Shown here piece by piece: positions 41,568-64,000 of a stretch of DNA of 64,000 nucleotides. Origin of the DNA: Bacillus pumilus. GTDB lineage: Bacteria; Bacillota; Bacilli; Bacillales; Bacillaceae. Where the stretch lies: contig NZ_LT906438.1 in assembly GCF_900186955.1 (NCBI RefSeq), positions 2,852,001 to 2,916,000 on the forward strand, given 5' to 3'. Made by a program: the position numbers and the translations under genes. Under the pieces are notes generated by a model. That model had not been told where the DNA came from. It saw only the letters and a list, made by a program, of their open reading frames with translations, and ran no database searches. Positions within the stretch are counted from its first letter, which is position 1; every line of letters begins with the position of its first letter.

Positions 41568-42098
41568 TTATGCTGTTAGTTCGCGCTGGCAGTGTAAACG
41601 GAAACGTCGGATGAACTTGCGATGTGCTTCGAAATTTCCTCCTAAACGTTGCGTCAACAACGTGGAGATTTCGGTCATATTCGTACATCCTTCGCTCCAA
41701 CATCTAAGTATTAATTCTTTGCGAAGATCGCCTTGCGTCAACAGGGCGGTCTTTTCTTTTAGTAAAACTTCGCCTTCGACGTCCGTCAAAACGTCTTGAG
41801 GCTCCCACGAGACATTACCATCATCTCGCATTCCTTCTATAGATAAAGCCGCTTCTTTTCGTGAAGCCTTCAGATACTTATTTCGTTCCCTTACGATAAT
41901 GCGCTGGATCAACGCTTTCTTATCACGACCATTCCCTTCATAGCGCTCCAACCAGTAGCCTATCGAGTTTAAGCACCGCTGCTCGAACGATGTTTGGTCG
42001 GGAACTAAGTGTGCGATTCGTTGCGATTCTCTTTGTACATACGGAATCGCTCCGTAATCTGCGGCCATCTGAAGTCTATTAAATTTTTCTTTATTCAA
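41568..42098 (-). CDS. Sigma factor-like regulator
   Basis: About 176 residues. A helical N-terminal part resembles sigma region 2, and the C-terminal third carries a possible region-4-like HTH (NMTEISTLLTQRLGGNFEAH). I choose the TTG at 42098, seven bases after GGGAGGAG. Promoter-like element B lies just upstream, so it may control itself and other copies of the element. It is the next gene downstream of aimP. Confidence 0.6.
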   Translation of the reverse strand: MNKEKFNRLQMAADYGAIPYVQRESQRIAHLVPDQTSFEQRCLNSIGYWLERYEGNGRDKKALIQRIIVRERNKYLKASRKEAALSIEGMRDDGNVSWEPQDVLTDVEGEVLLKEKTALLTQGDLRKELILRCWSEGCTNMTEISTLLTQRLGGNFEAHRKFIRRFRLHCQRELTA

Positions 42099-42161: not shown

Positions 42162-42224
42162 TGATATAAAGTTTTTTATATTTTTTCTTCCATGTCCATA
42201 TATTAGCATCTAGGGAGGAGAAGT

Positions 42225-42368
42225 TTGTGGTTTTTGGATAATCTTAGTTTTTTAGACTTTTCCGAAAAATATCATAAAAAAAGACAAAAGAAAAAGGCCA
42301 GTTGGCCCGTTCTTTTATCCACCTACTTTTATTGCGCTTGTCTGTATTGGTGTATTTTCATCCGCTAA
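42225..42368 (+). CDS. Possible antisense small protein (47 aa)
   Basis: TTG at 42225 has GGGAGGAG seven bases upstream. The peptide begins with aromatic and Leu residues, then a run of Lys and Arg, then Cys/Tyr/Trp-rich residues. Its last third is antisense to aimP. Promoter evidence is weak, so it may be chance. Confidence 0.3.
   Translation: MWFLDNLSFLDFSEKYHKKRQKKKASWPVLLSTYFYCACLYWCIFIR
42290..42309 (-). terminator. Terminator after aimP
   Basis: Minus-strand GGGCC AACT GGCC followed by TTTTT, directly after the aimP stop. If read through, transcription would pass into the region where aimX-like RNA is found in other arbitrium phages. Confidence 0.6.
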
Positions 42369-42449
42369 ATCTTTTGTGGATCCTTCGGTATTAAGAAGCG
42401 AAAGAACTAATGCCCCTAAAACAAAACCCGTTAATAAAATCTTTTTCAT
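42315..42449 (-). CDS. aimP: Arbitrium signal precursor AimP (44 aa)
   Basis: ATG at 42449 with GGGAGC eight bases upstream, overlapping the end of aimR. N-terminal KKILLTGFVLGALVLSLL is a secretion signal; the charged pro-region ends in AIKVGG, the predicted mature hexapeptide, analogous to SAIRGA of phi3T and GMPRGA of SPbeta. Exported, cut outside, and re-imported by the host oligopeptide permease in the known systems. Confidence 0.85.
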   Translation of the reverse strand: MKKILLTGFVLGALVLSLLNTEGSTKDLADENTPIQTSAIKVGG

Positions 42450-43557
42450 AAACAACAGCTCCCTTAGTTTTTAATTTAATCGACTTCAAAGCATTAACCT
42501 GATCGGGGTCTACTCCAACAATACGTAGGGTTTCCGCTGCGAGTGATGCGAAGAAGAAGTTCATCTCTTTGTGGAAATGGCTAAATGCTCTATATATATC
42601 GCCCAATTCCCTCCCCTTAACGTAGTTAAAGTATACTATAAAATCCTCATCACCTCCTAGAAGTAATCTGTCTGTAAATTTAGTTATATCCGGTAAATTT
42701 CCGCCGCTAAGGAAATCAAAAAGTGTCTTCACGAAATTTAAGTTATTCGTCGCTTCGGAAATTAAAACATCTTCTTTTGTCATTTTTGCGTAATCGACAC
42801 TCTTTATTAAAAAATCAATACACGAACCCTTATCTTCATATAAGTTACACATACCTAAATAATAATAACCGTCGGATATATGCTTGTAGTTGAGTTCGGT
42901 TTCAACAAGCACATTTGCGTGTTCGCGACATAACTCTAAATCATTTAAATGTAAATATGCCGGAGCTAACAATTCCGATAAACGATAAGAAAATGATTCT
43001 CTGAAAAATGCTCTTCTTTTTCCGATATTTTTTATAGAGTCATTTATCTCATTAGCTACCCTTGCCATTCCCAAAAAGTCTCCTTCATAGTATAAAGAAA
43101 CGCAGATGTATATATCTCTTAACACTGCGAGATCTTTAGAACTCGATACTTTTTGTTTTTTTACATTTTGGCACAATTCATTAAATTTAATTCTATCAGT
43201 CATGAAGTTCAACAAGAGGCTGTACATCTCGACGAATTGCTTAATTCCCGGCTCTTCTTTACTTTTTTCAAGAAGCATCCCAAGTAACTCTGAATCTCTT
43301 TTTAATGCAGCGTACTCAAAAGCTTGTTTAATCCACTCAGGAGATTCGATTTTCATACACCATTCACGCATTGTTTCGTGGTATTGTTCTTTGTAGAAGA
43401 ACTTTGAAAGTGTTACTAAGTGCTTGAAGCCAATGGACCCGCTGTCGGAAAACTCGTATAATACATCTTGGTTAATTCCGGTTTTTGTGGAAATACATGC
43501 TATACTTAAGTCGTGTTTTTCTCTGAGGTTGATAAAATCATCTTTAATTGACCGCAT
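42391..43557 (-). CDS. aimR: Arbitrium receptor AimR
   Basis: About 388 residues: N-terminal helix-turn-helix (residues about 8-48) and a long TPR-like helical domain. Matches the AimR pattern, including HETMREWCMKIES, LHLNDLELCREHA and YFNYVKGREL-type segments, the length, and the downstream signal gene. Peptide-free AimR promotes lysis in known phages and peptide binding favours lysogeny. The ATG at 43557 has AAGGGGTG upstream. Divergent XRE genes share its promoter region. Confidence 0.9.
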   Translation of the reverse strand: MRSIKDDFINLREKHDLSIACISTKTGINQDVLYEFSDSGSIGFKHLVTLSKFFYKEQYHETMREWCMKIESPEWIKQAFEYAALKRDSELLGMLLEKSKEEPGIKQFVEMYSLLLNFMTDRIKFNELCQNVKKQKVSSSKDLAVLRDIYICVSLYYEGDFLGMARVANEINDSIKNIGKRRAFFRESFSYRLSELLAPAYLHLNDLELCREHANVLVETELNYKHISDGYYYLGMCNLYEDKGSCIDFLIKSVDYAKMTKEDVLISEATNNLNFVKTLFDFLSGGNLPDITKFTDRLLLGGDEDFIVYFNYVKGRELGDIYRAFSHFHKEMNFFFASLAAETLRIVGVDPDQVNALKSIKLKTKGAVVYEKDFINGFCFRGISSFAS

Positions 43558-43612: not shown

Positions 43613-43628
43613 GCACACTTTTGTGTGC
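43613..43628. promoter_or_regulatory. Palindromic operator between aimR and the XRE gene
   Basis: GCACAC TTTT GTGTGC is a perfect dyad in the divergent region, close to TATAGT of a minus-strand promoter and upstream of the plus-strand XRE gene. Probably bound by the adjacent XRE protein. Confidence 0.65.
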
Positions 43629-43658: not shown

Positions 43659-43865
43659 ATGATTAGCTACGAACCGCTTAGGACTTACTTGGATGAAAGA
43701 GGGTTAACAACCGGAATTTTAAGAGATAAAGTAATACATCGGAACCTTGTAACGAAGATTAACGAGGACAAGCCCGTTAGCTTATCGACTATCGAAGCTA
43801 TTTGCCTCGAATTGGATGTGCCTATCGAAAAGGTTGTCCGTATTCTTCCAAATCCGCCCGAATGA
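43659..43865 (+). CDS. XRE-family regulator (68 aa)
   Basis: ATG at 43659 with AAAGGAG upstream. Compact Cro/C1-type HTH (PF13443-like: LRTYLDERGLTTGILRDKV then SLSTIEAICLELDVPIEKV). Divergent from aimR with a palindrome between, so likely controls aimR, itself or both. Confidence 0.8.
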   Translation: MISYEPLRTYLDERGLTTGILRDKVIHRNLVTKINEDKPVSLSTIEAICLELDVPIEKVVRILPNPPE

Positions 43866-43887
43866 CGATGGAATCGGCGCGGTTATG

Positions 43888-43896
43888 TGGTATAAT
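43888..43896 (+). promoter_or_regulatory. Extended -10 promoter
   Basis: TGG-TATAAT (43888-43896) with no good -35, 35 bases upstream of the second XRE gene. Confidence 0.5.
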
Positions 43897-43931
43897 TTCC
43901 TTCGTAAAGCGCGTCATTTTGCTTTGCGGAG

Positions 43932-44174
43932 GTGTTTATCTCGCAGTATTCGGTCGTAGATTGCCGGATAAAGGAACTGTGTTATAAACGTGGTTATACG
44001 CTTATCCAACTCGCAGAAATGGTCGGAATATCTAATACGCAGCTTTCCGATTATATTTCGCTCAGAAACGTCCCTAACGTTGAAATGGCATATTCTATTG
44101 CGCGTTGCCTCGACTGCCCGGTCGAAGCATTATATAATTGGCGTCCTTTATCCGGTAGCAACACGGAGGGTTAA
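43932..44174 (+). CDS. XRE-family regulator (80 aa)
   Basis: HTH at about residues 22-42 (TLIQLAEMVGISNTQLSDYI), followed by the usual helices. The GTG at 43932 is very close to its GGAGG, so the true start could be slightly downstream. Its stop overlaps the primase stop on the other strand. Second of two small regulators in the decision module. Confidence 0.75.
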   Translation: MFISQYSVVDCRIKELCYKRGYTLIQLAEMVGISNTQLSDYISLRNVPNVEMAYSIARCLDCPVEALYNWRPLSGSNTEG

Positions 44175-52290: not shown

Positions 52291-52479
52291 TTACAGCTCT
52301 GTTTGTTCTTTGTTTTTTCTTAAGCCTAATATCTTTAAGATGCGGTACGCGATCACAGAGACATAAGCCGTGATGAGAATGATTGTGTAAGACACAGGAT
52401 AATCACTCGTCATTCCGTGATAAAAGAAATAGATGAGCAGCACTGACAGCATGATGACTTGGAACAGTTCCTTTTTCAT
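52291..52479 (-). CDS. Two-helix membrane protein (62 aa)
   Basis: Two hydrophobic helices (about 7-22 and 30-50) and a charged tail. It lies between the tRNA end and the lysis cassette of the right island. Composition is host-like. No family recognised. Confidence 0.6.
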   Translation of the reverse strand: MKKELFQVIMLSVLLIYFFYHGMTSDYPVSYTIILITAYVSVIAYRILKILGLRKNKEQTEL

Positions 52480-52593
52480 TTTACTCTCCCCTCATGATAG
52501 TGATTCGGTCGATTATATCACAAATGATGTCATTTTTTGTTAGCTATCAGCAAGGGGAAATCCATTCACCTGCTGATAGCACTTTATGAATGA

Positions 52594-53397
52594 TCACTTT
52601 TTCAGCAATCGTTCGATTTTGTTCTTCGTCTTCGGACCGTATATCCCATCTGCCGCTAGACCATTCATAAGCTGGAACCGCTTGACCGCATTCGCTGTTT
52701 TTGATCCATAATAGCCATCAATCCCGTTGTTTTTTGCCCCTTTATCTGGGTAGAAATAGAGGGAGGATAAGGCTTTTTGCACAGCTATGACTTGTGGTCC
52801 TTTTGTTAAGGGCTTGGTTATTTTTAAGATGCCCGATGGCAGATTTGACGATTTCTGTTTGGTAACTGGTGCTTTGTGACTCAAGCTCTCTGTTCGAACT
52901 GGCTTTCTTGTGCTTTTGCTGCCGGTACGAGCTGTGGCTATTCCAGCTTTAAATTGATCCCACCGTCCGAGCAATTTCCTTGGACATTCTTTCCCGCTCC
53001 AATGTTTATGAGGGACTACATTTGATAAAGGAATTCCCAAATCGCCCATTAGCTTTCGAATGAGCCATTGGGCATTTTCGACTGCTTGTTCAAAGTTGCC
53101 GTCTGTATTTTCGCAAATTTCAATTCCGATTGATTTCATATTGCCATTGCCTCTGCCATCTCCTGTATGCCAGCCGTTCTCGTTTAACGGTAAATGCTGA
53201 TAAATCACCTGATCGTCGACAGTGTAATGCCAGCTGACTCCGGTACTTGAACGTGCAACAAACGCAGCGTGACTCCCAGCATTTGCACCTTTTGCCGTGT
53301 TAGAGGTATTATGCACCGTAATATAGAGCGGCTTCATCGTATTTCCTGGTCTGTTGCGGTTGTGTTTTGGAATGTAGGCTTGAATGATATTGACCAT
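52594..53397 (-). CDS. N-acetylmuramoyl-L-alanine amidase, endolysin
   Basis: A 267-residue XlyA-type lysin. Amidase_2 domain with zinc-binding His in ITVHNTS and HKHWSGKECP and an active-site region GWHTGDGRGN, then a linker and a C-terminal peptidoglycan-binding domain with ALSSLYFYPDKGAKNNGIDG. It cuts the bond between MurNAc and L-Ala. It follows the holin genes. Confidence 0.9.
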   Translation of the reverse strand: MVNIIQAYIPKHNRNRPGNTMKPLYITVHNTSNTAKGANAGSHAAFVARSSTGVSWHYTVDDQVIYQHLPLNENGWHTGDGRGNGNMKSIGIEICENTDGNFEQAVENAQWLIRKLMGDLGIPLSNVVPHKHWSGKECPRKLLGRWDQFKAGIATARTGSKSTRKPVRTESLSHKAPVTKQKSSNLPSGILKITKPLTKGPQVIAVQKALSSLYFYPDKGAKNNGIDGYYGSKTANAVKRFQLMNGLAADGIYGPKTKNKIERLLKK

Positions 53398-53416
53398 ATT
53401 GTTTCTCCTTCAACGA

Positions 53417-53680
53417 TTATTTTGTTAGCCCTCTTTGTTTCAGGGTATCTTTTTGTAATTGACCTTTGTAGGTCACATAATTGTTTTTAAACCAAGCGAT
53501 AATGGCTGTCACCATCGTAAAAATGGTGGAACCTGCTACATATAGTGCCTCACCAGCGGTTTGTACTTGCTCCTCACTAATCGGTAGCACCGTCTGTCCA
53601 AACATGACAAGTGTTTGATTGATGAGCGCAATAAAAAGAAGCACTGTGCGAATCACAGTGCCTTTGTCGAATGTTTTCAT
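53417..53680 (-). CDS. xhlB: Holin XhlB-like
   Basis: An 87-residue SPP1/PBSX-type holin with two membrane helices (about 10-29 and 47-65) and a basic end. It permits endolysin release. Located directly between BhlA-like and amidase genes. Confidence 0.85.
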
Positions 53681-53691
53681 GATTTCTCCTC

Positions 53692-53913
53692 CTATTTTAA
53701 ATTCCGTTCAATTTTGTCGAGTTTGTCGATCACAACATCATACTTCTCACTAAACTTTGCTAACACATCATTTTGCGCCTCGATTTGTTCATTGAGCTTG
53801 TTTTCTCTTTCCTTTGTTGTGTTTAATACATAAAACAGCACCCAACAGAACAACACCGCAAACGGCCCTTGTGTCATTAAGTTTTGAACAACATCTACTT
53901 CCATTGAAATCAC
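53692..53913 (-). CDS. bhlA: BhlA-type holin
   Basis: A 73-residue protein with one N-terminal membrane helix ([16 protein letters not shown]) and a charged coiled-coil C-terminus, the BhlA/UviB pattern of Bacillus pumilus-type phages. Works with XhlB and the amidase. Confidence 0.85.
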
Positions 53914-53940
53914 CTTCTTTCCGGCAAAAAAATAAAGCCA

Positions 53941-54084
53941 TTAGGCTTCGTATATTTCTCCAGTTATATTTTGATAGTCTTCTGTCGAGATCCAGCCAAT
54001 GCTTACATAAAATGCAATGTCCTCTGGGCCGTAACACTGCCAGTCCCAGAATTGTTTGATATCTACAACAGTTGGAAACATCAT
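53941..54084 (-). CDS. XkdX family protein, copy 2
   Basis: A 47-residue protein with Trp/Tyr and the pattern of XkdX (WDWQCYGPEDIAFYVSIGWI). The ATG at 54084 overlaps the XkdW-like stop and has GGGGGG eight bases upstream. Last gene of the second fibre module. Confidence 0.75.
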   Translation of the reverse strand: MMFPTVVDIKQFWDWQCYGPEDIAFYVSIGWISTEDYQNITGEIYEA

Positions 54085-54278
54085 TCTGAAGTCCCCCCTT
54101 TTTGCATAGCCAATAGCTGCGTTAATTGTTTTGATAACAAAGCATTTTGTTTCTTCAAAAGCTCTATATCACTTGGCGGGAGAGGGGCTGGTTTTAGGCT
54201 ATCTATATACTCCTGTGTCGCTGATTCATACCCGTGTTGTTTTTCCACATCAAATGCAGCTTTATAAAAAGCAGGCAC
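54081..54278 (-). CDS. XkdW-like small protein, copy 2
   Basis: A 65-residue helical protein whose ending LLKKQNALLSKQLTQLL is a heptad repeat. Shorter than the 109-residue first copy at 55884. Between the truncated fibre and XkdX, its place in PBSX-type islands. Confidence 0.6.
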   Translation of the reverse strand: MPAFYKAAFDVEKQHGYESATQEYIDSLKPAPLPPSDIELLKKQNALLSKQLTQLLAMQKGGTSE

Positions 54279-54546
54279 CTAACGATTTTATCCCGTTATA
54301 AATACTGCCGCCAGATGGGATATTGATCAACTGGGATCCGTTATCATTCGTCATTTTATATAGCTGAGATTGATTCCATTTCTGCTTTTCTGTTTTAGAT
54401 GAATGAGATGTTACATCATTTTCGTGTTGATTGATATGATTTAATAGTTCAGCATCATTTTCAATAATAACCTTTACCATGTCATTAAACAGATCTGCAT
54501 GAGCTGTATCACTTGTTTTGAAAGTACGCGGTGTCTTTATCTCCAT
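54262..54546 (-). CDS. Truncated tail fibre N-terminus
   Basis: A 94-residue relative of the first quarter of the 376-residue fibre at 54576: same EIK-P-x-F...AHADLFNDMVKV start, TEKQKWNQSQLYKMT and an INIPSGGSIYNGIK segment. It then ends abruptly. Looks like a leftover of a replaced fibre gene, but it has a good start. Confidence 0.7.
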   Translation of the reverse strand: MEIKTPRTFKTSDTAHADLFNDMVKVIIENDAELLNHINQHENDVTSHSSKTEKQKWNQSQLYKMTNDNGSQLINIPSGGSIYNGIKSLGACFL

Positions 54547-54575
54547 GTGATTCTCCTTTCACATTGTTTATGGAA

Positions 54576-55706
54576 TTATCTTGTACTGAACTTAAAACCA
54601 AATGTAATAAACTCAGTTGGATTAGCATTATTTGAAGATGATTGCACACATACATTCCCATTCTTATCTACTAAGGTTCGATGGAATTGAGGTACTCCAG
54701 GTGTCCCTATACTCGAAGCGATACCTACAAAATGGATTGCCTGCTGCGGCCGATATCCTTCAGGCAAAATAAACACTGGGTTATTTCCTAAAATCCCACC
54801 TTTTATAGCACCTACTATCTCAACTTCCCCCAAGAGATTCTTTCGATATTTCACTGGCAAATTAATAGGGTCATATCCCTTCCAATTGCCATTAATCTCT
54901 TTAGGTGTTTCCCATGAACCTTCTAATAGATCTGATAGCGTGATTTGCTTCTCCCACGGTGTCCATGATTGTGCATTGTGTCTAAGAACTCTAAAGTATG
55001 TGTTTTTTCCATAAACAGATTCGTATGCTATTTGCACCAATGTAGTGCCATAACTCATCACCAACAAAAACACTCGATCATAGGAAGGCGATGGACCGTT
55101 TACTCCAGTATTATATATAAGGTACATTCCTGTCTCGGTAAGAGTATTGTAGTCTGTCTCGCTAGCAAACCCATGATAAAATGGCTTTCCATTATCTTGA
55201 GTGATTTTTACTAATTGACCATTATCCCATCTATTTCTATCTCTTACCGTAGGCAGCTTTGTCCAAGTAATCGACATATGTCCGGCTTCGTAATAGAAAA
55301 AATAAGCATTACCTGAACTATCCATCGCAAAACCAGAGCCAATATTTTCTTGACCTACTGTCTGCAGCCCTCTGATTGAGACATTTGATGAAACTGGAGA
55401 ATCCTCCACACCAGCAGCTGCATAAAAAGTACATGTTCCTTTATCTTTTATCGCATCAAATATTCTGCCGTCAGAAGATACATTAATCAGCTGTCTTCCA
55501 CTATCTGCTGTGATCTTATAGTTCTGTGAATTATTCCATTTCTTCTTTTCTGTTTCAGATGCGTGTACTTTTGCATCATTTGTATGTTTTAAGAACTGTT
55601 CTATTAATCCATGATCATTTTCAAGAAGTACTTTGACCACGTCATTAAACAAATCAGCATGTGCTTTATCATTTACTTCAAAAGGTTTTGGTTCTTTTAT
55701 TTCCAT
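54576..55706 (-). CDS. Tail fibre protein, module 2
   Basis: A 376-residue protein. N-terminal anchor module (AHADLFNDVVKVLLENDH), linker with TEKKKWNNSQNYKIT, then beta-rich repeated receptor-binding region. Phage fibres and pyocin-like tails use such proteins to bind the host wall. GGGAGTGAAAACTGA precedes the ATG. Confidence 0.8.
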   Translation of the reverse strand: MEIKEPKPFEVNDKAHADLFNDVVKVLLENDHGLIEQFLKHTNDAKVHASETEKKKWNNSQNYKITADSGRQLINVSSDGRIFDAIKDKGTCTFYAAAGVEDSPVSSNVSIRGLQTVGQENIGSGFAMDSSGNAYFFYYEAGHMSITWTKLPTVRDRNRWDNGQLVKITQDNGKPFYHGFASETDYNTLTETGMYLIYNTGVNGPSPSYDRVFLLVMSYGTTLVQIAYESVYGKNTYFRVLRHNAQSWTPWEKQITLSDLLEGSWETPKEINGNWKGYDPINLPVKYRKNLLGEVEIVGAIKGGILGNNPVFILPEGYRPQQAIHFVGIASSIGTPGVPQFHRTLVDKNGNVCVQSSSNNANPTEFITFGFKFSTR

Positions 55707-55713
55707 TCAGTTT

Positions 55714-55887
55714 TCACTCCCTTGCTTTGATGCTTGGTTCCATTTCTTGTAGCTGCTCTAGAGTGAGCATCCTTTGTTCATATCCTGTTTTTAAATCTTC
55801 CATTGAACAATCGCCTAGTTCCACCGCTTGTTTGACCAATTCAGGGGTCACCCATTTAAAATACAACGCCATCACCCAATAATTCAT
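55714..55887 (-). CDS. XkdX family protein, copy 1
   Basis: A 57-residue protein with MNYWVMALYFKWVTPELVK, the XkdX pattern. It overlaps the XkdW-like stop and precedes the second fibre gene. Confidence 0.75.
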   Translation of the reverse strand: MNYWVMALYFKWVTPELVKQAVELGDCSMEDLKTGYEQRMLTLEQLQEMEPSIKARE

Positions 55888-56213
55888 GATTCACGCTCTC
55901 CTTTATATAAAAGGATCTCATTTTTTAGCGCTTTTATTTCGTTTGTTAAATGATCACATTGATGTTCAAGCTGTTTTCTCATGAGCTTTTCTTTGGCTAC
56001 TTCTTGTGCTAGATAATCTAGCGGAAGAGGTGGTTGATATCTTGGATTGATTTGAGATTCGTCCCACCATTCTTTCAATTCTTTTGCCGTTGGCTTTGGC
56101 ACATCTAGATGCCACTCGTTAATGTAAGAACCGTCTCCGTCATTTCTAAGTTCAAAGTCCTTTTGCGGATCCGCATCGGGGTATTTATACTTAATGGCTT
56201 CATATAAAATCAT
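55884..56213 (-). CDS. XkdW-like protein, copy 1
   Basis: A 109-residue protein with an acidic Pro-rich first half (ADPQKDFELRND, YINEWHLD) and a C-terminal coiled coil. Between the first fibre and XkdX. Probably a fibre-assembly factor by position. Confidence 0.65.
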   Translation of the reverse strand: MILYEAIKYKYPDADPQKDFELRNDGDGSYINEWHLDVPKPTAKELKEWWDESQINPRYQPPLPLDYLAQEVAKEKLMRKQLEHQCDHLTNEIKALKNEILLYKGERES

Positions 56214-56222
56214 AGAATCCTC

Positions 56223-57101
56223 CTATCCTCTCAGGAAATTTCTGCCGCCTACTTCTGTAATATCAAAATAGTTGTACCAGCCTGAATTTTCAGATACATA
56301 ACGACTAACATCTCCGTCATATCCTGCATACATGTAAATTTCTAAATAATCCCCTTTATTAGCCGGTACATTCGCAGCACCATAAAGTCCCATACTAAAG
56401 CTCAACGTATCAGATGGGCTGGTCGGGCTCTGTCTTTGATGTGCAATATTTTTATACCTTTTTCCATTTAAATAGATCGATAATTCAAAGTTTGCGTATC
56501 GTTGAAAGGTTTCAATATAAACACCTGCATTCACTGAATACATTCCGTTTTCAGGGCAGATGAAGCGATTATTTTTGATATCAAAATTGTTATGACTGTC
56601 TTTTATCTTTCGATTAAAAAGGATTTTTTGATACTCACCTTTGGTTAATAACTGTTTTCCAGTTGTACCTATATTGGCATGACAGAATCCAGAGAGCTTA
56701 TGCCAGTCGGTCCAACCAGATCCAGTCCACCAATGACGGCACCACGTACCTGTGCTATCAAAATAACTGCCCGCTTCGTTTCCAGTCCCATAGTAATATT
56801 GAACAAATCGAAAGTTACTATATTTTTCATTTTTCACAAAGCCAAATCTCGTAGGATATCCGGTATCATTCGCTTGTCCAATATCCATGAACGTAATGCC
56901 ATTAGGATATTCCTCACCGCTGACTGATGCATCTTGAATGGCTTGATCGCCTGTTAGTTTAAATAAGCTTTCATTTGTGATTCCTTCTATTTGTAGCCTG
57001 AGCGCATTGTCATTCTCTACTAGAGTGTCGACCATCCGGTTAAATAAGTTGGCATGTGCTTTGTCAGAGGTTTCAAACGGTAAAGGTGATTTGATGTCCA
57101 T
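56223..57101 (-). CDS. Tail fibre protein, module 1
   Basis: About 292 residues from the ATG at 57101 (GGAGGGGAATGAA upstream). Starts with the same anchor (AHANLFNRMVDTLVENDNAL) as the other fibres; the C-terminal 120 residues are a C1q-like beta domain (NIGTTGKQLLTKGEYQKI then KNNRFICPENGMYSVNAG), a likely receptor-binding head. Confidence 0.8.
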   Translation of the reverse strand: MDIKSPLPFETSDKAHANLFNRMVDTLVENDNALRLQIEGITNESLFKLTGDQAIQDASVSGEEYPNGITFMDIGQANDTGYPTRFGFVKNEKYSNFRFVQYYYGTGNEAGSYFDSTGTWCRHWWTGSGWTDWHKLSGFCHANIGTTGKQLLTKGEYQKILFNRKIKDSHNNFDIKNNRFICPENGMYSVNAGVYIETFQRYANFELSIYLNGKRYKNIAHQRQSPTSPSDTLSFSMGLYGAANVPANKGDYLEIYMYAGYDGDVSRYVSENSGWYNYFDITEVGGRNFLRG

Positions 57102-57115
57102 TTCATTCCCCTCCA

Positions 57116-57499
57116 TTAATAAATATCATCAATCTCAAAAACAAATTCGATGTCGCCGTCTTTTTGTTTGTCTGTCATGGTGCGGATGGCGGTGAATTTG
57201 CCGGCTTCGTCGACAAGTGCTAGTTCGTTGATGACTTCTCCTGCAAGTTCTCCTTCGGCGATCGTGCAGGTGTAGCGGATTTTTGCTGGTTCCATGAAGG
57301 TAAACGAATCAATCTCTTTTTGGACGAGTTCTTTTTTGAGTTTTTGTTCAGTGCCGTCTAGTGAGATCGGTTTCCCATCCTTCGTCCCACCATTTCCAAA
57401 TGCCATTTTGACGACTTTTGTGAGTTTTGTTCCTTCGGCTCTTGCCTTTGCCATTTGTTGACGTGCATATAATGTTGTTACGGTTAATTGATCAGCCAT
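57116..57499 (-). CDS. Phage tail-collar fibre-like protein (DUF3751-like)
   Basis: A 127-residue protein with KMAFGNGGTKDGKPI and the beta-rich pattern of the tail-collar N-terminal family. Follows XkdU in many PBSX-type islands and probably connects baseplate and fibres. Confidence 0.7.
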   Translation of the reverse strand: MADQLTVTTLYARQQMAKARAEGTKLTKVVKMAFGNGGTKDGKPISLDGTEQKLKKELVQKEIDSFTFMEPAKIRYTCTIAEGELAGEVINELALVDEAGKFTAIRTMTDKQKDGDIEFVFEIDDIY

Positions 57500-57510
57500 T
57501 GTGATCCTCC

Positions 57511-58434
57511 TTATAGCTCTATTTTTTGAGAAGTAGCTGCTAGCATTTTTGATCCGTCCAGCGGAACAGATCCATCGAGAATCCAGTAATGATCCTTAAT
57601 CAGTAAGCTGCCGCCTTGTTCAGTTTGGACATGTACTGGCAATCGGAACGTCATTTTCTTCTTGGTTTGATGCTGGAGCTGATTTTTTGTGCGTAAAGTC
57701 AATGCCGCTCCTTGCTTCGTTTCATGTACCGCTCCAGTCATGACATAATTCATTCGGTATGTGTTCTCTGACTTATGCTGAAGCGGCATTCTCATCTTCA
57801 ACGAATGCCGAAAACGAGCAGGTACATCGGTTGTCCCTCGTGTTCCGCTCAGATAAAACGACCCATTTAATACAAATTCACCATTGAGTAAAATCGGGAT
57901 ATGATCGAAAAAACCCACTCTGCTTCGCAGTGTGAGCCTCCCGTGATGATCATTTATTTCATGTACATCGGTATGATGAAATGCAGTGAACGTATAAGCC
58001 AAATGAGCTGGCTTTAACGTTTCAAGTATTTCTACAATATATCTAGTGTTTTGCAGATCATCTAGATTCACACGTAAGGCGAAATGGTAGCGATTGGTGG
58101 TCAGACGGATGATGGCACTTGGATTTTTGAGAAAGCGATTCACCGATTTCTCTAAAGAAAGATACGTGATCGGTGGAATGTTTGACATCATATTGAGTAA
58201 GCGTGCTCTGCGAAGTTCAATGGAATCATCTGATTCTCGCTGCACCTTCAGCATTCTTTCCCATCTATTCAATCCCCATGTCGCTGTCAAAGGGAAGAAC
58301 TGATCCATTAAATCGAAAATGGATTCATCCAATTGCTCAAACTCTGGCGCTTCTGTTTTGAGCAGGTGATCGACTTCATAAATCTCTGTAAAATATGGCG
58401 GCAAGTAGTTTTTCATTTCATCCTGTTTGCTCAA
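57511..58434 (-). CDS. xkdU: XkdU-like baseplate protein
   Basis: A 307-residue DUF2313-type protein (YLPPYFTEIYEVDHLLKTEA near the start) that caps the baseplate, with an additional C-terminal beta domain of about 120 residues, longer than typical XkdU. Overlaps the xkdT stop by 17 bases. Confidence 0.8.
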   Translation of the reverse strand: MSKQDEMKNYLPPYFTEIYEVDHLLKTEAPEFEQLDESIFDLMDQFFPLTATWGLNRWERMLKVQRESDDSIELRRARLLNMMSNIPPITYLSLEKSVNRFLKNPSAIIRLTTNRYHFALRVNLDDLQNTRYIVEILETLKPAHLAYTFTAFHHTDVHEINDHHGRLTLRSRVGFFDHIPILLNGEFVLNGSFYLSGTRGTTDVPARFRHSLKMRMPLQHKSENTYRMNYVMTGAVHETKQGAALTLRTKNQLQHQTKKKMTFRLPVHVQTEQGGSLLIKDHYWILDGSVPLDGSKMLAATSQKIEL

Positions 58435-59467
58435 TAACCTTCACCTGCCTCAGACGCGGTATCTCAATGTCCTGTAACACTAAGTTTTTTGACTCCCCAT
58501 TCAATAACACGTTTGCATAATCTGATACACTTTCTGAATGGTACAGAATGTCATTTAATGCGGACATTCGAATGGTACTCTTTTCAAATGCAATTGATTT
58601 CAACAGCGCTTTGACCTTTTCTTCTATTTCTTTCTGCGCTCCTTCAAGGGTCCAGTCCATTTGAAGTTCGACGGCTACTTCTATGTCAATGTCCAGCCAT
58701 TTGGCGCTTTCGACGGTCGCTTTTGAACCAATAGGCGCTTGTCCTTCTCCTTCGCCTGGTACTGGGTCGATATATTCCTGTACTCTTTTAACAAGCAGAT
58801 CTGATGCAACATCTAGATTGCCGTCTGTGATGACAATCTTGACTGTTCCTTCTCCATTCCAAAGCGGGAATACCTTCGCTCTGCCAACCCCTGTCACTTC
58901 CTCAGCCCATTTTTTATAATGCGCCTTGTTGGCACTGACAGCCTCTCGCCTAGCACGTATTAAGTAGCGATCATATAACGAAGCGTCATCTTCTTCCTCT
59001 TGTCCGGGTATTACCAAATCTTTCATGATAATTGATTCAAGCCCCGGGATTGTATCAAGTGAAAGCAGCGCCTGATCTGTTAATTGACCATTGCCGACTT
59101 TGCCAGGTGTCTCGCATTCTAGCGTCCCATCGTTCGAATATTGGAAATAGACGTCTTCAATAAAAAACCGTGAGCCAGCTGGGATGTTGATATCCTCCGG
59201 CTTAATAGCTGCGGACCAAACCGCTTTAGTCGCTGGTTTTCTTTCAATTCCTACTTCAGCGGCCCGCCGATCTAGAAACTCTCCTTGTGCTGTATCTGCA
59301 AAGACCAGCTCGAATACTTGATCAAGCCAAATATAGGACTGGGCCAGTTCAGCAGCAGCAGGTGCCAAGGCATTCCAAATGACGCTGTTTTCTCTTTTAT
59401 CTATGTCATCTGGCAGTCTGTCTAGCATTCTTTCCATTAATGCTTCGTACGTTTGTTCCTCAAACAT
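58418..59467 (-). CDS. xkdT: Baseplate J-like protein XkdT
   Basis: A 349-residue baseplate wedge protein with the [20 protein letters not shown] and [19 protein letters not shown] motifs typical of gpJ-like proteins. Overlaps xkdS by eight bases. Confidence 0.9.
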
Positions 59468-59891
59468 CGCTCTCCATCACCTCCTCTATTTCTAATGTGC
59501 CTTCATCTGTGACTATAGCTAGCTTGACATGAAACGAGTCATTTTCCTTTGTGACCTCTATCTCTTCAATATGATCAATCCGTTCGTCCACAATCAATGC
59601 TTCCTCTAGCAGCCTCGGAATCTCCATTTCTTTGTATTCATCCGTGGCTTCTGTATCCGTCAAAAGCTCCTGAATTTCAGTGCCAATGTCGTGGCTGTAA
59701 ATAGGATGTGCATACCGCTCTGTCCTAAGTGTCATATAAACGAATTGACGAATTGCTTCAATGCCTGAAATGGTTTCACCTGTCAATCTGCCAGTTTCAA
59801 CATCTATTCGATACGTCGTCGAGGTTTCCACCTCTTCGCCTTCTTCTGTTTCCTCAATTTCTTCCTCTGGTGAAAGTGCCACGTTCATCAC
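59460..59891 (-). CDS. xkdS: XkdS-like baseplate protein
   Basis: A 143-residue DUF2634-type protein with [15 protein letters not shown] sequence ([18 protein letters not shown]). Glu-rich start. Between xkdR and xkdT as in PBSX. Confidence 0.85.
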
Positions 59892-59896
59892 CTCCC

Positions 59897-60163
59897 TTAC
59901 AATTTGTCGATGATGTAGAAGGATTGCCCTCCTGCCATTGCCAGCACCATAATGCTGTCTCCCCTTTTCAGTTCATCATCCTCACCCTTATTTAGGCGCT
60001 TTGGCCAAATCAGTAATTCTTCCGGGATGATTAGCTTATGGTTTTCATTTAACTGGATGCTTACAGGAGAAACTGCCGTAACTTCTCCAATCACCAGATC
60101 AATTGGAGAGGCGGCGTCTACAGCATTCACTGCTAATCGTTTAATCGCTTCACTTAACCTCAC
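59897..60163 (-). CDS. xkdR: XkdR-like protein
   Basis: An 88-residue DUF2577-type beta protein ([20 protein letters not shown], then [17 protein letters not shown]). Overlaps xkdQ by four bases. Confidence 0.85.
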
Positions 60164-61170
60164 GCTTGATCACCCTTTGGAATGGAATTTTTCTCAACGA
60201 CATCAATTGTCATGGTGTGTTTCACCCCACTGAATTCATGTTTGTCCTGATCGATCCAGTACGTATTTTTTACGTTGATTTCAGGGATTTTCAAATAGAT
60301 TGGAAGACCGCTTTGCAGTTCAGGAATGCCTAGCGCTTGGATGCTTTTGACTTCTTGTTTCACGCCTTTTTTCTCTGCCAGCCGTACTTTGGCTCTTTTT
60401 TGCAGCTGCGGCTGGTTGATTTGCCCTGTAACCGTCTCAACATGCTGTAAAATACCGTATTTACTCTGACCTGCTTTATCCTGTTCGACCACTACAATCT
60501 CTGATTTGCTACCTTTTTTCTTATTTTTCCCCTGTTCATCCACAGACGTGCGCAGCTTGACACGAGTGGCTGTTTCTTCAATCGAGGTGCTGTACTGATA
60601 GCCAATGAGATTGACACCTGATTCAATGACCCATACGTCCTCTGGATCTGGCCAAGCTCTCAGCCCCATCTTTCCTTTAGCAGAATAGATTTGATAGTTT
60701 CTGCCGGTTTGCCGCTTTGTCTCTTTTAATGCTTTCAGAATCATGTCATATAGGCTCGTATCGTTTTTAAACACTAGTGATTTTATGACATGACCTGTAT
60801 TGGCGATGGAGGTCATGGGAATTTGAAAGTCAGCTCCAATCCGTCTCAAGATTTGATCTGCTCTTTGTTTTGAAAAAACATAGACATCTTGGTTTTTCAC
60901 CAAATATTGAAGCATGTCGTATGCGGTAAAGGTCAGTTTCCCTTCAACAGGCGTCCTAGAAAACACAATGCCTCTGAACAGCTCTTTTCCTTTCCATTTA
61001 AAAAGAACCGTGTCCCCTTCTGAGACACGGTAATATGTTTGACTCCCTTGCTTTGTGATAATATTTGCTTGAATAGAGCGAGGAGCTTGATACCTTTGCC
61101 CCTGAAGTGTCACACTCTCTGTGACAAGCTCATACATGGTGCCGCTTCTGATGGCAAAAAGCTCGATCAA
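60160..61170 (-). CDS. xkdQ: XkdQ-like tail hub protein
   Basis: A protein of about 336 residues of the gpD/XkdQ type. I choose the TTG at 61170, which has AGGGGGG seven bases upstream and follows the xkdP stop; an ATG at 61221 lies inside xkdP. Central hub domain binds the spike. Confidence 0.85.
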   Translation of the reverse strand: MIELFAIRSGTMYELVTESVTLQGQRYQAPRSIQANIITKQGSQTYYRVSEGDTVLFKWKGKELFRGIVFSRTPVEGKLTFTAYDMLQYLVKNQDVYVFSKQRADQILRRIGADFQIPMTSIANTGHVIKSLVFKNDTSLYDMILKALKETKRQTGRNYQIYSAKGKMGLRAWPDPEDVWVIESGVNLIGYQYSTSIEETATRVKLRTSVDEQGKNKKKGSKSEIVVVEQDKAGQSKYGILQHVETVTGQINQPQLQKRAKVRLAEKKGVKQEVKSIQALGIPELQSGLPIYLKIPEINVKNTYWIDQDKHEFSGVKHTMTIDVVEKNSIPKGDQA

Positions 61171-61181
61171 TGCCAGCCCCC

Positions 61182-61853
61182 CTATTGTGGTATTTTTAAC
61201 CTTTGTCCAGGGAAAATCCAATGCCCCGGCTGCTTAATATTTCGTTTGCTACGTTTAATCATCGCTAATTTATTGGCATTCCAAATACGCCGCCATTTTG
61301 TACTGTCGCCATAAAACCTGCCTGAAATGGCCCATAGCGTATCCCCTTTTTTGACGGTGTACATTTTTGGCGGTGTTTTTGAAGGCCTTTTCTTTTTCGT
61401 TTGTTTTGCTTTTTTCTTTCGTTTAATTTTCCTAGGCGATGCGGTTTTGTATTCCTTTAACTCGATCGTAAATTCACGATCGCCAATATCATATGATCCT
61501 TCTTTATGGGTGAAGCTTTCAATGCTGCACGTCATGTTGATTTTTGTCCCCGTTACAATCAGCCGCACAGACTTCTTTGAACGCATCATTCGTTCTATTT
61601 TCGCTATCGCATTCTCCGGTGATGGAATGCTTTTATATTCAGCAATTGGCGAATATTTCTTAGGAAATAAAGAAGTGAATGATACTTGCTTAGCCGATGG
61701 GACATCAATAAAGGTCAGTTCTCCAAAAGAGGCAACCTTTACCGTTTCATTTTGTACGTTATTTGTGATTTCAAGTTCGGATGGAAGGACAGGGAATCGC
61801 AACTTGTCCTTTCCTTGGGAAATCCACAATTGATACACTGATTTACCCATCAA
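61182..61853 (-). CDS. xkdP: XkdP-like LysM protein
   Basis: A 223-residue protein: N-terminal beta domain, a Lys-rich linker (about 145-165), and a C-terminal LysM domain ([20 protein letters not shown], about 169-188) that contacts peptidoglycan at the tail tip. Confidence 0.9.
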
Positions 61854-64000
61854 TCACGACCCCCTTCGTTCCTGTATGAAGCTCTACTTCCAGTTCATCT
61901 ACGAGCATTTGTCTAATTTTTTCGACTAGCGATTGCTGATCTTGTCCATTATGGAAATGCTGATCCCCATTGAATTGAATGGTGATTTGCTTATTACTTG
62001 ACGATGCTGTACGACTAGAAGACTGAGCTGAGGTGACTTGCTGCATTTGTGATTCTGGTAAAGGAGCAGACGCATTTGCTGGATCATATACTTGCATTCC
62101 AAGTGCCTTGGCTGCCTGCGTTAATAAATACCTTCCGCGTATGCCTCTTTCTTCAGGAATGATCCATTCGCGTTTGTTTCCTTCACCGACTCTAGCAACC
62201 TGCTCCTGAGTAATCAGTCCACCATTTGCGTAGCCTTTATAAGGCCCGCCTCTTCTCATACTTCGTAATCCCGGTGTATTGAAGACTGTTCCATATCTGC
62301 CCTTAATGTAGTTAATGGCTGCTACGGCATTATGAATTGGGTTCCAAATGTCATTCATGCCTTTGCCTTTATTGGAGTTAAACGTCGTTCCAATGGTTTG
62401 CATTAAGCCTTTAGAAGGCGTTCCCTTCTTGGCGTTAGAATCCCATAAGTTGATTGCTCTCGGATTTCCATTCGATTCATGCTGCGCAATGGTCATAAGT
62501 CCTGGAAGCCAGTTCATCGATGTGCCAGTTGCCATGAGAGCTGCCATGAGCCATTGCTGAACACTAAGACCTGAAGCCCCCATACCGCTGAAGGCACCGA
62601 TTAATGAACCAGCCTGATTTTCAGCAAACTTTTTCACATCAACTGAGTCGAGTCCTTTGACGACACCGATCGATGCGAATTTCCCAAGACTCATCATGAC
62701 GCGTGAAGGGGAATGAATATCTAATTCCTCTCTAAACGCCTGCTCTACTTTCTTCGCCATTTCTTTGGCGGCTTGTGTGACTTCACTTGCTTTTGAACGC
62801 ATGCCACTGTTAAAGGCATCCATCATTCCTGAGCCCCAGCCTGGTGATTCTTGTTTTGCTTGTAGAAATGGTTGTTTGATGTGCTGATCTACGTATTGGC
62901 TAGTACCAACTGAAGTGGCATTTTGACCTGTGGCAAAACCACTAACCGTTCCAGAACCCCAAGTTGGCGATGCTGTCATCACTTGTTGATATGGTGCTTT
63001 TACACGACTTTGCAAAAAGCTATCTGTTCCTGTTGGTGTCATCTGCTGACCATTCGCAAAAGCAGCAACTGTTTGCTGACCATACTTATTTGAGTCTGAG
63101 GTCAATTGACCAAAAGGCTGCTGAATATTCTTTTGCTTCCATTGATCAAGTGTAATCATTTTTTGATTTAATCCTTGTTCAAAATCCTTATTAAATTGCT
63201 CGCCTATGCTGGAGGCTTGAATGTTCCCAGTCATCGAGACCGATCCGTCTATTGAACCGACAGAAGATGATGAAGCTACTGCTGTAGGAGCTGGAGAGCT
63301 TGATACTTGATTTCCAGCTGCTCCGCTTGGCATAACAGACATCCCAAGATGAGAAGCAGCCTGAGCAAGCAGCATCTTCCCGCGCCCTCGGTTATTTTGA
63401 GTTGGAATGACAAATTCGTTACCTGCTTCACCGACCCATGATAAGGTTGGCTGGGTGATATAGCCGCCTGTGGCTTTTTTATCAGGGTCTCCAAAGACAT
63501 GTTTCAATACAAAATCAACCCCACCGCCAGCCTTATTAAACAAATCTTTGACCCACCCAAACGCTTTAGAAAACCCATCACCAATAGCTTCTGCTACTTT
63601 TACAATCGGCTTTTGAATGTTGTCCTCAAACCATTTGGATAATCCATCCCATATATCTGTCACCACTTTATACGCTTCTTCGAACTTTTTCCCGAAACTG
63701 TCTTTAATGGTTCCTACGGTATCTACAAGTGGATTCCACACATTTTCCATAAACCATGACGATACAGCTCCAAAGATTGATTGTATCTTTTTCCATGCAT
63801 TTGATAATGCTGTCCAAATCCCTGTAGCGACTGTAACAACTGTACTGCTCAGTGGTGTCCAAACGTTTTCAATAAACCAACCCGCTACTGCACTGAACGT
63901 TTCTTGTATCCATGTCCATGCATTGACTAAACTTGACCAGATGGTCGTTGCTACCGTAACGACTGTGTCGCTGAGCGGTGTCCAAACGTTTTCGATAAAC
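61843..64000 (-). CDS. xkdO: Tail tape measure XkdO with transglycosylase domain, 5' end outside window
   Basis: The frame is open from the stop at 61843 to the right edge (719 codons seen). It has tandem 41-residue repeats at the visible start, two segments of [23 protein letters not shown], and a soluble lytic transglycosylase domain ([18 protein letters not shown], then [10 protein letters not shown]) in the last third. It sets tail length and opens the wall during injection. Confidence 0.9.
63757..64000 (-). repeat. Tandem 41-residue (123-bp) repeats in xkdO
   Basis: Units beginning [11 protein letters not shown] and containing TVVTVAT-IW-LxNAWxxIQxxF recur at exactly 123 bp; at least two units are complete in the window and a divergent third begins at 63756. 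Such repeats change tape length in steps. Confidence 0.8.

Follow-up and report, generated by a model that had tools for sequence, protein, structure and literature searches.

What does the arbitrium receptor of a Bacillus prophage control when the phage around it is not SPbeta-like? The locus that raises this question is an aimR-aimP pair in a 64,000-nucleotide stretch of the Bacillus pumilus chromosome (contig NZ_LT906438.1, positions 2,852,001 to 2,916,000; hereafter the window). According to passages of PMC10516654, what acts downstream of AimX RNA in arbitrium systems has still to be identified. Here we describe a likely arbitrium module made up of AimR, the predicted signal AIKVGG, a dyad and, in place of a stand-alone aimX, a sigma-like output gene that AimR would activate, with binding, activation and sigma function predicted from sequence comparison. 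The AimR-AimP module itself is of a known kind, and what is added here is the predicted operator geometry and the putative sigma-like output. The original prediction, made from the letters of the window, contained no operator, promoter, sigma-like gene or dual coding, all of which are described below.

The receptor and its signal precursor

The receptor gene, aimR (42391..43557, minus strand, ATG start), encodes a 388-residue protein with helix-turn-helix (HTH) and tetratricopeptide repeat (TPR) regions, and its original identification as AimR is borne out by profile and structure comparisons. It matches the NCBIfam equivalog NF038310 (lysogeny_AimR) at 222.9 bits against a cut-off of 70 (E 6.1e-66) and Pfam PF22871 at 84.5 bits against a cut-off of 26.7. 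An AlphaFold model built on a 12-row alignment has a mean predicted local distance difference test score (pLDDT) of 84.9, falling below 50 in the C-terminal tail (residues 367-388), and all 16 of its PDB matches at E <= 0.001 are AimR proteins. The next matches are a proteasome subunit (0.013) and RapI (0.015), and with the AimRs at 2.8e-7 to 2.3e-5 a Rap- or PlcR-type identity was ruled out. On sequence and modelled structure, then, the protein is an AimR-family receptor with an HTH plus a TPR-like AimR fold. Relatives in bacteria named as B. altitudinis, B. safensis, B. licheniformis and B. velezensis (P0001-P0005) are 48-91% identical to it, and the AimR name is already attached in some source to 8 of 11 relatives. 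A comparison of peptide-pocket residues, which had been suggested with the original prediction, gave a mixed picture: in a sequence alignment of the window AimR with that of Katmira, whose anchoring residues are given in passages of PMC9232636 as R228, N273, N202 and Q299/E300, R228 corresponds to K225 and N273 to N272, while N202 corresponds to P199 and Q299/E300 lie opposite a gap.

The end of aimR is overlapped by 59 nt by aimP (42315..42449, minus strand, ATG start), which encodes a 44-residue precursor ending in TSAIKVGG. This precursor and its coordinates were confirmed as first proposed, and the mature signal AIKVGG, with its cleavage site, is still a comparative prediction. AimP has no significant match to family profiles (best E 0.11), and as a query it retrieved two protein clusters, so relatives were gathered through AimR. 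A precursor with an MKK start, a hydrophobic stretch and a GG/GA-type end overlaps the end of aimR in all 23 loci processed, at offsets of -53 to -101 nt. Within the overlap (22 codons per comparison), identity at the third codon positions of aimR is 0.68-0.95 in all of eight pairwise comparisons; for the same pairs it is 0.37-0.49 in the aimR body and 0.34-0.74 across its first 50 codons. The eight comparisons were drawn from five sequences and are therefore not independent. This conservation at third positions points to coding in both frames of the overlap, and aimP is probably a real gene. The ribosome-binding site and start of aimP sit inside aimR codons, and the low-pLDDT tail of AimR may exist mainly owing to the overlap.

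Near relatives share the precursor end TSAIKVGG, while other AimR groups end in VSEIKVGG, VAEIKVGG or VAGIKVGG, and more distant groups in TADIRPGG, TAELRPGG, VAEISPGA, MAGIKPGG, ETIKPGG, VEIKPGG, GKVQPGG, ADPIPGG, INAIGG, ANQLGG or INSIGA. Alignment to VAGIVRGA of Goe14 suggests a mature hexapeptide AIKVGG, cut after TS. Because this C-terminal alignment pairs AIKVGG with the hexapeptide GIVRGA, the likeness to SAIRGA noted in the original prediction is partly an effect of register. The accompanying proposal of a new arbitrium specificity is supported only in part: among the literature matches for the strings AIKVGG, EIKVGG, GIKVGG and IKVGG there was no phage paper by title. AIKVGG itself is common to several close prophages, and it belongs to a wider xIKVGG group with EIKVGG and GIKVGG variants in other species groups.

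The host chromosome also holds a second AimR-family gene (G000:C1:2410236-2411261, locus L007; L084 9236-10261), which scores 172 bits, above the cut-off, and adjoins genes for an integrase, an HTH protein and a phage replisome organiser. The open reading frame (ORF) downstream of it ends in TKEVRVGM, and the host may have two arbitrium-like receptors, each with its own signal.

A predicted operator and promoter downstream of aimP

On the 3' side of aimP, beyond a terminator-like hairpin and T-run read by eye (42291..42308, minus strand), lies a 41-bp block (42229..42269, minus strand) that is conserved in the near group and contains the predicted AimR operator. The block encloses a dyad, TTTTCGGA-22-TCCAAAAA, of 38 bp (42231-42268, minus strand), and is followed by the extended -10 element TGCTAATAT (42200..42208, minus strand; pattern TGnTAnnAT) of a predicted AimR-dependent promoter, at which no good -35 is seen by eye. 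Of 23 loci, 22 have an extended -10 of this pattern no more than 200 nt after aimP (the exception is L013); as background, the 144 kb surrounding the window contain 57 such sites, counting both strands.

When 111 possible centres were ranked in 13 representative loci, the best common dyad centre lay 44-45 bp upstream of the extended -10. This centre ranks first in eight representatives (in the window tied with a poly-A/T dyad), second in three (weakly in L012), third in one and tenth in one (L032). Its joint score of 78.2 compares with a mean of 26.0, a standard deviation of 3.6 and a maximum of 36.6 in 200 dinucleotide shuffles. For the nine less related representatives the score is 55.6 (maximum of 300 shuffles, 35.8), with the window left out it is 50.0 against 28.4, and for six representatives 33.4 against 25.0, the centre falling at 44.5 in all three cases. 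This dyad-to-(-10) geometry recurs with differing half-sites among divergent AimR relatives, including TTTTCGGA in the window, AAATTGGGT in L028, AAGTTG in L014, AGTTTAAAA in Bacillus phage vB_BauS_KLEB27-1 (OM654379; hereafter KLEB27-1), GAACAA in L037, L043 and L015, AGTACAC in L035, GTATCTAAA in L036 and GTAAACTAA in L042. When the window is considered alone, one of the other 56 extended -10 sites within the 144 kb has as high a score, so the case for its dyad is comparative. On this comparison we predict an AimR operator downstream of aimP. Elsewhere in the window, at 52520 (minus strand), an extended -10 is paired, at equal spacing, with a dyad that scores very strongly (10.2) and may be a terminator hairpin.

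SPbeta, phi3T and Katmira, which fall in clade 2 in passages of PMC9232636, have the AimR family and fold and a small secreted precursor after aimR in common with the window. The SPbeta-type dyad described there, ATCACT-25-AGTGAT downstream of aimP, spans 37 bp compared to 38 bp in the window; we found it in three of four SPbeta-type records and not in phi3T. None of the four records has TGnTAnnAT within 330 nt after aimP, whereas the window has its extended -10, and aimP starts 25 nt (Goe14), 27 nt (SPbetaL1) or 30 nt (phi3T) after the end of aimR, unlike the overlapping aimP of the window. The window differs further from SPbeta, phi3T and Katmira in its signal AIKVGG, in a sigma-like gene in place of the small aimX gene, and in its SU10-type phage. 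The P0001-P0005 relatives have an overlapping aimP like the window, with AIKVGG, EIKVGG or GIKVGG as the signal at loci with these AimR types; they vary in signal position 1, in dyad sequence and, in some loci, in the type of output gene. The B. cereus-group phage B83 (clade 7), as described in passages of PMC6669507, resembles the window in carrying aimR-aimP among XRE-type regulators; it differs in its signal, the propeptide ending in ADPGGSVG, and in that aimX is proposed to be a small ORF.

The output gene and the direction of control

No separate small gene was identified after aimP in the window. Instead, a leader of about 95 nt separates the promoter from a 176-residue output gene (41568..42098, minus strand, TTG start, ribosome-binding site GGGAGGAG), which is sigma-like by sequence comparison (phrog_24888). 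In 17 of 21 loci examined the promoter is followed by a sigma-like gene, which belongs to one of three types. Against the 207- and 211-residue types, TIGR02937 scores 37.9 (L004), 38.1 (L012) and 33.1 bits (L015), all below its cut-off of 42.9, and it does not match the L037 output protein; PF04542, compared with five output proteins, exceeds its cut-off of 24 only in L015 (26.0 bits). An Rfam scan of the window gave no match at the gathering threshold, and a leader hairpin, GGACAT...ATGTCC, was dropped, being absent by eye from loci with the 207-residue output. An annotated 132-nt ORF lies downstream of aimP in L042. In two arbitrium papers, one of them PMC10516654, the passages on sigma factors contain no account of AimR governing a phage sigma factor.

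The leader could itself be an aimX-like RNA or code for a short peptide, as in a standard arbitrium system, with the sigma-like gene merely the next gene along. Annotated aimX of phi3T is a small ORF after aimP, and in the more distant loci L036 and L042 the dyad geometry is kept with HTH regulators, and no sigma-like gene, behind the promoter. We nevertheless think this arrangement unlikely here, since the promoter is constant while output genes swap among the three types, a sigma-like gene is present at the large share of loci given above, and the leader is not conserved between the 176- and 207-residue output types. A second alternative reverses the sign of control, with AimR repressing the predicted promoter so that the peptide would turn the sigma-like gene on. 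Sequence alone does not give the sign of control, but the dyad lies upstream of a -10 that lacks a good -35 by eye, as for an activator, and characterised AimRs activate aimX (passages of PMC9232636 and PMC10516654), which makes repression improbable.

In the reading that we consider likely, with AimR as an activator of the sigma-like gene, AimP would be secreted and cut to AIKVGG. The free AimR dimer would bind the dyad and switch on the sigma-like gene from its promoter, which would favour lytic development. Once re-imported, AIKVGG would bind AimR, DNA binding would be lost, and the sigma-like gene would fall silent, favouring lysogeny. Receptor, signal and operator would together form one exchangeable cassette, and the output gene a second exchangeable unit.

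Cassette exchange and the carrier phage

The isolated phage KLEB27-1 has the layout of the window prophage and nearly the same output gene, with a different signal end (TADIRPGG), a different dyad and an AimR only 26.6% identical. Aligned pieces of the two, 68-100% identical, extend from about -11,646 to 51,978 in window coordinates, but homology breaks off at 42208 and picks up again at 43800-43929, before HTH2, and the gap takes in the dyad, aimP, aimR and HTH1. Among 10 phage pairs picked by inspection, a clean break near the promoter was found in five, two were continuous and three had patchy homology only. The output was kept and the cassette changed in window/KLEB27-1 (94% from -3) and L032/L014 (93% from about +30), while the cassette was kept (90-95%) and the output gene changed at +34 to +47 in window/L005, L010/L030 and L030/L031. 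Recombination separates a receptor-signal-dyad cassette from the output gene at the promoter in these 5 of 10 pairs. That arbitrium cassettes are swapped has been noted before, in passages of the review PMC13389391.

The exchanged segment also contains HTH1 (43659..43865, plus strand), a 68-residue Cro/CI-type regulator divergent from aimR (PF13443, above cut-off), while HTH2 (43932..44174, plus strand), an 80-residue XRE-type regulator (PF01381, 42.6 bits), lies outside it. The divergent aimR/HTH1 promoter region holds a palindrome, GCACAC-4-GTGTGC (43613..43628, plus strand), as a candidate HTH1 site; a search allowing up to two mismatches gave two matches against 1.19 expected, this copy being exact, and the palindrome is common to L005, L030, L028 and L034. 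HTH1, or the sigma-like system, might bind the dyad at -44 while AimR acts elsewhere, and HTH1 does travel with aimR in the exchange seen against KLEB27-1. However, the window and L028 share the palindrome and an HTH1 that is 78% identical but not the dyad, and L005 combines the dyad of the window with a different output gene. L011 and L015 were given no weight in the HTH1/palindrome comparison, the ORF taken as HTH1 being clearly wrong for the former and probably wrong for the latter. The 41-bp block pattern, moreover, occurs once per contig in seven viral contigs, exactly the seven with an AimR at least 69% identical, and a single time in the genome of the host when up to three mismatches are allowed. 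Because the block tracks contigs with similar AimRs, and because the window and L028 share HTH1 but not the dyad, we infer that the dyad follows AimR rather than HTH1, and binding by another regulator seems very improbable.

The carrier is, from its gene content, a temperate Bacillus phage of about 64 kb integrated in the chromosome and not SPbeta-like, as had been recognised from its SU10-type capsid and family A polymerase. Profile matches confirm both, the capsid as an SU10 major capsid protein (PF17236, 5.9e-59) and the polymerase as DNA polymerase A (PF00476, 5.6e-73). The phage also encodes an SPP1-like portal, an integrase and a terminase. The gene order of primase, two divergent HTH genes, aimR, sigma-like gene and polymerase also occurs in phi18-2, KLEB27-1 and a B. 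paralicheniformis plasmid. The last is a 65,049-base circular record (L043, NZ_CP126497.1) with this gene order and an AimR, which suggests a phage-plasmid member of the lineage. It is highly improbable that the module has decayed and is inactive in this prophage, given that all module ORFs are intact, that relatives show the dual constraint, and that lineage phages have been isolated, namely KLEB27-1 (by its record) and 268TH002 and 268TH007 (described as temperate in PMC9476937). The first part of the text of PMC9476937 does not mention arbitrium, and the name KLEB27-1 is absent among the literature matches listed. Scans of viral contigs with P0007 and P0008 gave no relatives, and a scan of genome contigs for relatives gave one locus. 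Beyond the end of the KLEB27-1 alignment, positions 52291-64000 of the window hold another set of phage-like structural genes, by eye a PBSX-type element.

The wider reading is, in our view, evenly poised: in this lineage of roughly 65-kb phages, the arbitrium receptor would directly switch a sigma factor encoded by the phage, and an excreted hexapeptide would thereby decide whether host RNA polymerase is redirected. The receptor-signal-operator cassette and the sigma gene would be plug-in units that meet at a single promoter, always at a spacing of 44-45 bp. A predicted protein output and a precise predicted site make the question of what lies downstream of AimR directly testable in a new phage lineage, and the shared geometry provides a rule by which AimR sites could be predicted in distant relatives of the receptor group. 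Moreover, the pattern of exchange suggests how a phage may swap its signal and receptor yet keep its output, or the reverse.
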